64,000 bases of DNA from Candidatus Raymondbacteria bacterium RIFOXYA2_FULL_49_16 (GTDB lineage: Bacteria; Fibrobacterota; OXYB2-FULL-49-7; XYB2-FULL-49-35), in assembly GCA_001789205.1 (NCBI GenBank), contig MFYT01000018.1, positions 43,864 through 107,863 on the forward strand, in the 5' to 3' direction. The position numbers and the translations under genes are program-made. A model generated the notes under the pieces. That model saw nothing but the letters and a program-made list of their open reading frames with translations, made no database searches and had not been told where the DNA came from. Positions within the stretch are counted from its first letter, which is position 1. Every line of letters begins with the position of its first letter. Of the stretch, positions 13,298-14,171 are shown in pieces.

Positions 13298-13358
13298 AAT
13301 ACAAATCCGGAAACCAGGTTCTCAAGGGGCAGTAATGAAAATCCAACTTCTAAAATCC

Positions 13359-13376
13359 GGCGGCGCAGAGGCCGCC
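13359..13376. repeat. RAYT-flanking hairpin A' (outer left)
   Basis: GGCGGC-GCAGAG-GCCGCC, a 6-bp stem with a 6-base loop. Read on the other strand its loop is CTCTGC, the loop of hairpin A at 13908-13927. It is followed by GTTAATCAACG, which matches GTTAATCATCG next to hairpin A on the opposite strand. Confidence 0.7.
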
Positions 13377-13409
13377 AGTTAATCAACGTGATTTGTTTTC
13401 TTATAAAGC

Positions 13410-13425
13410 GAGGCTAGACGGCCTC
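13410..13425. repeat. RAYT-flanking hairpin B' (inner left)
   Basis: GAGGC-TAGACG-GCCTC, a 5-bp stem just after the transposase stop. Its reverse complement (GAGGC-CGTCTA-GCCTC) resembles the core of hairpin B at 13859-13880 (GAGCC-GTCTCT-GGCTC). Confidence 0.6.
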
Positions 13426-13432
13426 ACAACAG

Positions 13433-13846
13433 TTATTTCCAGCTTTTTCTTCCGAATATAGGTTCAGCCCAATAAGGCCATTCTTTCCATAACGAAACCA
13501 GTCCTGCCTCTTGAGAGTTGAATAAAACATACGAGGTCACCTTTTCAGTTGCGGTCAAGCTAACTACTTCTTTAGACAAATGGCCATCGCGCCAAAGTTT
13601 TCCATTCCACCCATATTTCCAAGATTCGTGCGTTACGAATGATTTCCACCGTCCAAGAAAATAGTCCGGATCATCATGGCCTTTTTCTATGCAAAGATGT
13701 AAATGATCAGGCATCAGGCAGAAAGCGTGTATCCTCACTCGTTTCATCTCATGACAATTTATCAGATTATTGCAACAGACCAATGCGATCTCCGGGTTAT
13801 CGAATGGCCTTTGATAGTTATGCGCAGTTACCATGTAATGCACCAT
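13433..13846 (-). CDS. REP-associated tyrosine transposase (RAYT, IS200-like Y1 family)
   Basis: A 137-residue HUH endonuclease-type transposase. The HUH pair is in CLMPDHLHLCIE and the likely catalytic tyrosine in TSYVLFNSQEAGLV, which precedes the common EWPY motif. RAYTs cut single-stranded hairpin repeats (REPs) and are thought to spread them. The start at 13846 has AAGGA seven bases upstream and a hairpin directly before that. Paired hairpins flank the gene in mirror order. It looks intact. It sits between the Rrf2 regulator and the OmpA gene. Confidence 0.88.
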   Translation of the reverse strand: MVHYMVTAHNYQRPFDNPEIALVCCNNLINCHEMKRVRIHAFCLMPDHLHLCIEKGHDDPDYFLGRWKSFVTHESWKYGWNGKLWRDGHLSKEVVSLTATEKVTSYVLFNSQEAGLVSLWKEWPYWAEPIFGRKSWK

Positions 13847-13858
13847 GAGTTCGTCCTT

Positions 13859-13880
13859 GCCGAGCCGTCTCTGGCTCGGC
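13859..13880. repeat. RAYT-flanking hairpin B (inner right)
   Basis: GCCGAGCC (13859-13866), loop GTCTCT, GGCTCGGC (13873-13880): an 8-bp perfect stem. On the minus strand it ends immediately before the AAGGA ribosome site of the transposase, so it could also limit its translation. Confidence 0.7.
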
Positions 13881-13907
13881 CGTTAAAACAATAAAACGAT
13901 GATTAAC

Positions 13908-13927
13908 AGGCAGCCTCTGCGCTGCCT
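13908..13927. repeat. RAYT-flanking hairpin A (outer right)
   Basis: AGGCAGC (13908-13914), loop CTCTGC, GCTGCCT (13921-13927): a 7-bp perfect stem and the inverted counterpart of hairpin A' at 13359. Confidence 0.7.
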
Positions 13928-14171
13928 AGTGGACCCAGCGAGCAGTCCTGCAACTATCATTCCCTGACCCCCGTGTTGCCAAGTGGCTCGGTTGGCTAGC
14001 CTGGACCACCGGTTATTGTCTGGATATAATATAACGTTTGGATGTGACAAAACCTGTCACACATCGACGCATATGCGTAAAAAGGTTGGGAAATTATTCG
14101 CAGCAGTTCTATCAGGGTGAGGTCTTTCAGTCCCCTTTGTATTTACCTGTAAAAATTACTATTTTCAACAT
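13928..14171. other. Non-coding region and leader upstream of the OmpA gene
   Basis: No gene of family type is seen. The first part (about 13929-14009) can fold with GTGG-A-CC..AG against CTGG-A-CCAC and an inner GCCAA/TTGGC hairpin, but matches no riboswitch I know. A promoter follows at 14002-14030. The likely leader then has a TGTGAC/GTCACA hairpin (14043-14061) and the 12-bp palindrome ACGCATATGCGT (14067-14078). Confidence 0.5.
14002..14030 (+). promoter_or_regulatory. Candidate sigma-70 promoter of ompA-like/ligA
   Basis: TGGACC (14002-14007), 17 bases, TATAAT (14025-14030). The -10 is perfect, the -35 matches four of six. It would make a leader of about 210 bases before the OmpA-like start at 14251. 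Confidence 0.55.

Follow-up and report, generated by a model that had tools for sequence, protein, structure and literature searches.

The window, a stretch of 64,000 nucleotides, harbors on its minus strand a 137-aa gene (13433..13846) for a predicted RAYT/TnpAREP-type Y1 HUH transposase with the residues H48-L-H50 and Y106. Two hairpins lie on each side of this gene, and the order A'-B'-RAYT-B-A that had been described in a sequence-only reading of the DNA was recovered in our analysis at the same positions. The outer left hairpin A' (13357..13378, plus strand) consists of the stem GGCGGC/GCCGCC at 13359-13376 with the loop GCAGAG and extends to 13357. It is followed by an inner foot, GTTAATCA (13378..13385, plus strand), which is kept in every unit family in an alignment of 17 ends. 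The inner left hairpin B' (13410..13425, plus strand; GAGGC-TAGACG-GCCTC) is located just 3' of the RAYT stop codon, and the inner right hairpin B (13859..13880, plus strand) reads GCCGAGCC-GTCTCT-GGCTCGGC; both were delimited by alignment, covariation and folding. On the right, the foot TGATTAAC (13900..13907, plus strand) mirrors the left foot in the same alignment and precedes the outer hairpin A (13908..13927, plus strand; AGGCAGC-CTCTGC-GCTGCCT). A and A' were both identified by folding, arm complementarity and matches to the R1/R2 models. Over 31 nt, 87% of the positions in the outer arms (13359-13389 and 13896-13926) are complementary, and the inverted match between the flanks reached a local alignment score of 47, compared with a maximum of 27 in shuffles (n = 100). 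When folded as single-stranded DNA, each end formed two hairpins (z -2.6 on the left, -5.4/-5.6 on the right).

The ribosome-binding site of the RAYT gene, AAGGA (13854..13858, minus strand), is positioned 7-8 nt 5' of the ATG. As had been pointed out before, hairpin B directly adjoins this site on the coding strand, and the leader RNA folds better than shuffled sequences (z -3.3). Because hairpin B ends at the ribosome site, it may restrain translation of the RAYT. GC-rich stems just outside both gene ends, one of them next to the ribosome site, could also serve an ordinary small gene as terminators of transcription or as elements of mRNA stability, with the symmetry being incidental. We regard this explanation as barely credible. 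A U-tract terminator was predicted at none of the hairpins, on which ground the terminator reading was rejected, and it is largely refuted by the ordered hairpin pairs that recur gene-free at ten further sites (see below), where conservation covers loop, foot and linker beyond the stems.

The RAYT protein

The Pfam model Y1_Tnp matched the protein above its cut-off. NCBIfam NF047646 (REP_Tyr_transpos) scored 62.7 bits (E 3.5e-17), which is below the curated equivalog cut-off of 80 bits and marks a related protein, and transpos_IS200 remained far below its cut-off (16 versus 55 bits). A two-sequence profile retrieved a single relative from the PDB, E. coli TnpAREP (4er8, E 4e-6). The same REP hairpin-bound structure ranked first in Foldseek (probability 1.00, E 7e-6), above every IS200/IS605 structure, when an AlphaFold2 model (pLDDT 91.4) was used as query. 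The earlier assignment of the gene as RAYT is thus borne out by the best PDB match in sequence and in fold. H48, H50 and Y106 are invariant in an alignment of 16 RAYTs of many phyla. The tyrosine motif reads YVLFNS in the window RAYT (N kept, P replaced) and YVLWNP in a paralogue (see below), which corresponds to the class Y---N. Judged by its catalytic motif and predicted fold, the product is an intact TnpAREP/RAYT-type HUH nuclease. IS200/IS605-type elements likewise possess a Y1 HUH transposase that works on hairpin ends, and known members have neither terminal inverted repeats nor larger duplications (PMC2817692); in contrast, the ends of the window unit are inverted and its Y motif is of the RAYT class. 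The whole genome contains four Y1 genes, two of which are of the window RAYT type. Between these two, synonymous sites are saturated (pS 0.85) while pN is 0.30, which means that purifying selection has maintained the protein.

Copies of the unit in the genome

Using both ends as DNA queries, we retrieved gene-free copies from the same genome in which left and right ends are held close together. A second RAYT unit is located to the left of the window, at a distance of 28 kb on the same contig and strand (C18:29408-29987; L099:4409-4988). It has the same order A'-B'-gene-B-A, its protein is 51% identical to the window RAYT, and the outer flanks of the two units are unrelated. Eight ends from four units could be aligned over hairpin, linker and hairpin. 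Among the window unit and the gene-free copies C9a and C49, the ends are similar by side, left to left and right to right. Both stems covary: 96.6% of cells are paired, with 20 double-change cells compared to 6.8 in shuffles, and the effect was lost when the stem partners were slid against each other. A covariance model of the ends gave 31 matches at E<=1 in this genome, 24 of which belong to 12 pairs in inverted orientation; two of these pairs bracket a RAYT gene and ten, 119-266 bp long, are gene-free. A second model, restricted to hairpin A and its foot, gave 30 matches in 5.4 Mb, comprising the same 12 pairs and about six singlets; all 12 doublets are inverted, and the singlet:doublet ratio is 0.5. 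As single-stranded DNA, gene-free units each fold into one long hairpin (z -6.9 and -8.9). Nine of the ten overlap no ORF of at least 150 aa, in agreement with a dispersed extragenic repeat. Besides the stems, the sequences of loop, foot and linker are conserved among the copies.

The sequence-only reading had proposed one mobile unit of about 570 bp rather than loose REPs, and had suggested a genome search for further copies of the ends. This search was productive, and the proposal is not refuted by a lack of other copies: both ends recur, in ten gene-free paired-hairpin doublets and in the second RAYT unit. Since the second unit carries the same hairpins, gene-free doublets exist and the stems covary, the notion of one repeated unit instead of loose REPs holds. 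Its right limit at 13927 does not hold. A right outer tail (13931..13962, plus strand) is common to the window unit and C9a (C9:77425-77582; L106:1926-2083), with 25 of 32 positions identical, a level reached in 0 of 1000 shuffles. On this evidence, the unit probably reaches past hairpin A on the right, to about 13962.

C9a is also central to the question of whether the unit moves as a whole. Between its B' and B lie 25 bp that resemble the 3' end of the RAYT gene, a collinear and weak match that was equalled in 136 of 2000 shuffles and is, perhaps and only suggestively, a deletion scar. Such a scar would be expected if the whole A'-B'-RAYT-B-A segment of about 600 bp were an insertion sequence capable of moving itself, from which the gene-free copies arose by internal deletion. 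The existence of two RAYT-carrying units and the presence of both ends and the 32-bp tail in C9a are also in line with this idea. However, the two RAYT proteins differ at 49% of positions, which together with the saturated synonymous sites argues against a recent movement of the whole unit. Moreover, neither RAYT unit has a target duplication, the two have no outer flank in common, and the remnant match is of a quality that shuffles attain. We therefore consider a self-mobile insertion sequence unlikely, and movement of the RAYT-carrying unit of about 570 bp as a whole remains hypothetical.

A motif like GCATCTTT recurs 1-10 bp outside A' at the left ends of units of several families (C9a, C6, C11a, C78 and C11b). 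E. coli TnpAREP cuts at a CT dinucleotide, and the motif, which contains CT, might be a cleavage site.

Distribution in other genomes

With the covariance model, 166 further genomes of the phylum yielded no convincing unit. Four weak R1 matches (26-34 bits) in these genomes were single and unpaired and were not counted as units. A close RAYT match was not found in the other 59 genomes searched, none nearer than phylum, and most further RAYT matches within the phylum belong to other subclasses, being long proteins that are not closely related. RAYT scans of viral contigs and of phages retrieved nothing, and a scan of plasmids gave one match with 31%. Of 38 distant RAYT loci in other phyla, about half are flanked on either side by inverted repeats, most of which are palindromic, and two of these loci (L127 and L130) have two hairpins per side. 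RAYT genes have been described as always flanked by two inverted REPs that form a transposon-like unit (Nunvar et al., 2010, PMC2817692). The idea of a mobile unit, at which the symmetric arrangement had been taken to hint, is therefore already established, and the symmetry has to be seen as a general feature of RAYT loci.

Gene-free doublets within TIR/TSD elements

Five of the ten gene-free doublets are enclosed by outer terminal inverted repeats (TIRs; 13-21 bp, perfect or near-perfect) and exact target duplications (TSDs) of 9-10 bp. The resulting elements of 181-347 bp have no coding capacity and belong to three different TIR families. C78 (C78:15462-15643, 182 bp) and C11a (C11:2216-2396, 181 bp) share the TIR CTATCTATTACCCA and are flanked by the duplications CATTGCCACC and CCCTCAGAAC, respectively. 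C100 (C100:18097-18443, 347 bp) has the TIR GGGTGCAGGACAGGGTTTGCA and the duplication AACAACACA. C26 (C26:68097-68393, 297 bp) has a TIR like CAGTAGTGTCCGG and the duplication ATTCGTTTT, and C48 (C48:39051-39328, 278 bp) carries the same TIR type with the duplication AAAACTAAT. C78 splits one of two adjacent copies of a local repeat, so that the intact neighbor represents the empty site; it is 89% identical over 57 bp to the joined flanks of C78. The pairs C11a/C78 (179 of 183 columns identical) and C100/C9b (344 of 357) are nearly identical, which indicates that these TIR elements have spread recently. Neither TIRs nor a target duplication were found around the window unit, the paralogous RAYT unit, C9a, C49 and C6.

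Inverted repeats together with duplications of 9-10 bp are a mark of DDE transposition, and a reaction of this kind is not known from RAYTs. Therefore, the last move of these five doublets looks DDE-type, not RAYT-type, and was most likely made by a different kind of transposase. As the body of DDE-type MITEs, several doublets would thus have spread by at least one further route. It could be argued from this that the A/B doublets serve first of all as structural components of DDE-type MITEs, elements that RAYT genes only use or by which they were captured. The TIRs and TSDs at half of the gene-free doublets, in three TIR families, and the recent spread of the near-identical pairs speak in favor of this. 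On the other hand, hairpin and foot occur in all families while the TIRs differ, which makes the hairpins look older. Furthermore, TIRs are absent from both RAYT units and from three gene-free copies, a pair of these TIRs 1-3 kb apart, as expected for an autonomous element, was not found in the assembly of 112 contigs, and RAYT genes of other phyla typically have inverted hairpins. An origin of the hairpins as MITE parts thus appears quite improbable to us. From hairpin and foot being common to families with different TIRs, we infer instead that the doublets are older and were later taken up by DDE elements, an order of events that is tentative. A more specific proposal, which we put forward tentatively and at somewhat less than even odds, is that a non-GTAG, RAYT-cognate doublet has become the core common to three or more families of DDE-type MITEs, which differ in their outer TIRs and each have 9-10 bp duplications, and hence combines the sites of two unrelated transposition chemistries. 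If true, one repeat would have sites for a single-strand HUH enzyme inside and for a double-strand DDE enzyme outside.

An overlap of CTATCTATTACCCA with an Rfam group II intron family raised the possibility that it is merely intron domain 6. This was rejected, because C78 has the same ends and another 10-bp duplication at a place where no intron was detected; CTATCTATTACCCA is consequently read as a TIR that is inserted into introns at some sites. C11a is inserted at GTTCTGAGGG beside a group II intron domain 5 (L097:2216-2396 and 2380-2438), and two other contigs have ends of the same TIR at an identical position of the intron (L095:2134-2147 and L096:2629-2642), hinting that the TIR elements prefer insertion into introns or that introns carry them. 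Partial GTGTCCGGTTAAA-ended copies with complete or degenerate A hairpins are present in L100 near 2165 (C97:113664), in L101 near 1820 (C98:22319), at C101:18966 and at C98:3309, so the GTGTCCGGTTAAA family is larger than its intact pairs.

The foot and the putative guide

On the inner side of the hairpin, the 17 aligned ends have TTAATCA (TGATTAA when read from the opposite strand) or a close variant of it, and none has a GTAG tag. On the minus strand, the foot of A' lies 5' of its hairpin and reads TGATTAAC, which is a candidate guide. In E. coli TnpAREP, GTAG is contacted by W94, Q95, E/D100, H101 and R104 (PMC6006769). The corresponding region of the window RAYT is WRDGHLSKEVV, in which W alone is kept of the contact residues. 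A Calditrichaeota RAYT (L124) that is accompanied by GTAG hairpins reads WQPRSFDHGLR. Absence of the GTAG tag together with absence of the contact residues is as expected if the guide has changed, and such a change is plausible for the window RAYT/hairpin pair on the basis of these few sequences.

Discussion

We interpret the locus as a REPtron, i.e. a RAYT with its own REP-like hairpins, doubled and inverted, that acts in trans on doublets, several of which are now bodies of DDE-type MITEs; we assign this reading a probability of about 0.7. The observed part of the model comprises the anatomy, the covariation, the intact catalytic motif with the predicted fold, the purifying selection, the copy number, the inverted pairing and the TIR/TSD marks on five gene-free copies. 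Mechanistically, the RAYT as a single-strand HUH nuclease would bind hairpin A via stem, loop and TTAATCA foot and cut beside it through Y106. Gene-free A'...A doublets, which would form one long hairpin when single-stranded, might be mobilized in trans as REPINs. Hairpin B is possibly a second RAYT binding site. Additionally, several gene-free doublets have most likely spread as bodies of DDE-type MITEs. The REPtron reading has points against it, namely the low copy number for REPs, the sub-threshold REP_Tyr_transpos score, the missing GTAG tag and the non-conserved guide-contact residues. Moreover, half of the gene-free copies bear DDE marks and can thus be explained without any spread driven by the RAYT.

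The locus resembles described REPtrons (PMC2817692; 4er8) in having a Y1 HUH RAYT between inverted palindromes that are also scattered in the genome, as well as in predicted fold and catalytic residues. It deviates from them by two distinct hairpins per end, by an inner TTAATCA foot in place of a GT(A/G)G head, by guide-binding residues that are not conserved and by few copies: REPs usually exceed 100 per genome, compared to ~30 hairpins here. Inverted doublets were defined as the replicating unit, or REPIN, using a singlet:doublet ratio below 2 (Bertels & Rainey, 2011, PMC3116915). The doublets of this genome conform to that description, as they are inverted, outnumber singlets (ratio 0.5) and fold into one long hairpin. 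In contrast to REPINs, they number about 12 instead of hundreds, and half of the gene-free ones reside inside TIR/TSD elements. TIRtrons with TIRYT genes contain RAYT-like genes between non-GTAG inverted repeats, some of which are 'double palindromic' or combine a REP with an unrelated stem-loop (Di Nocera et al., 2013, PMC3733652). Compared by text description, the portions of that article considered here do not describe a double hairpin with a TTAATCA foot or gene-free doublets enclosed by TIRs and TSDs. The five TIR/TSD elements correspond to bacterial DDE-type MITEs in their TIRs, 9-10 bp duplications and lack of coding capacity. They differ from them in that their body is a RAYT-type hairpin doublet, and the window unit itself is without such ends.

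RAYTs cut REPs in vitro, and the mechanism by which REPs are disseminated has not been demonstrated (PMC8266576). The genome studied here offers a small, countable set of two gene-bearing units and ten gene-free doublets, in which some gene-free copies have TIRs and duplications and other copies lack them. This points to DDE transposition as a way for a REP-like doublet to travel and cautions against ascribing every REP copy to RAYT activity. Whereas inverted REPs around RAYT genes were already published (PMC2817692), what is new is mainly the putatively changed guide and the occurrence of REP-like doublets inside TIR/TSD elements. With neither GTAG tag nor guide-binding residues, the RAYT/hairpin pair represents a testable change of recognition. 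Seven distant RAYTs (L129, L132, L138, L139, L142, L147 and L148), including those of Zambryskibacteria and Nomurabacteria, are flanked left and right by hairpins of the TGTCAAAG type; those that were aligned have an FQDxFK motif in place of WQ..DH..R. Potentially, this set is another non-GTAG RAYT/hairpin pairing.
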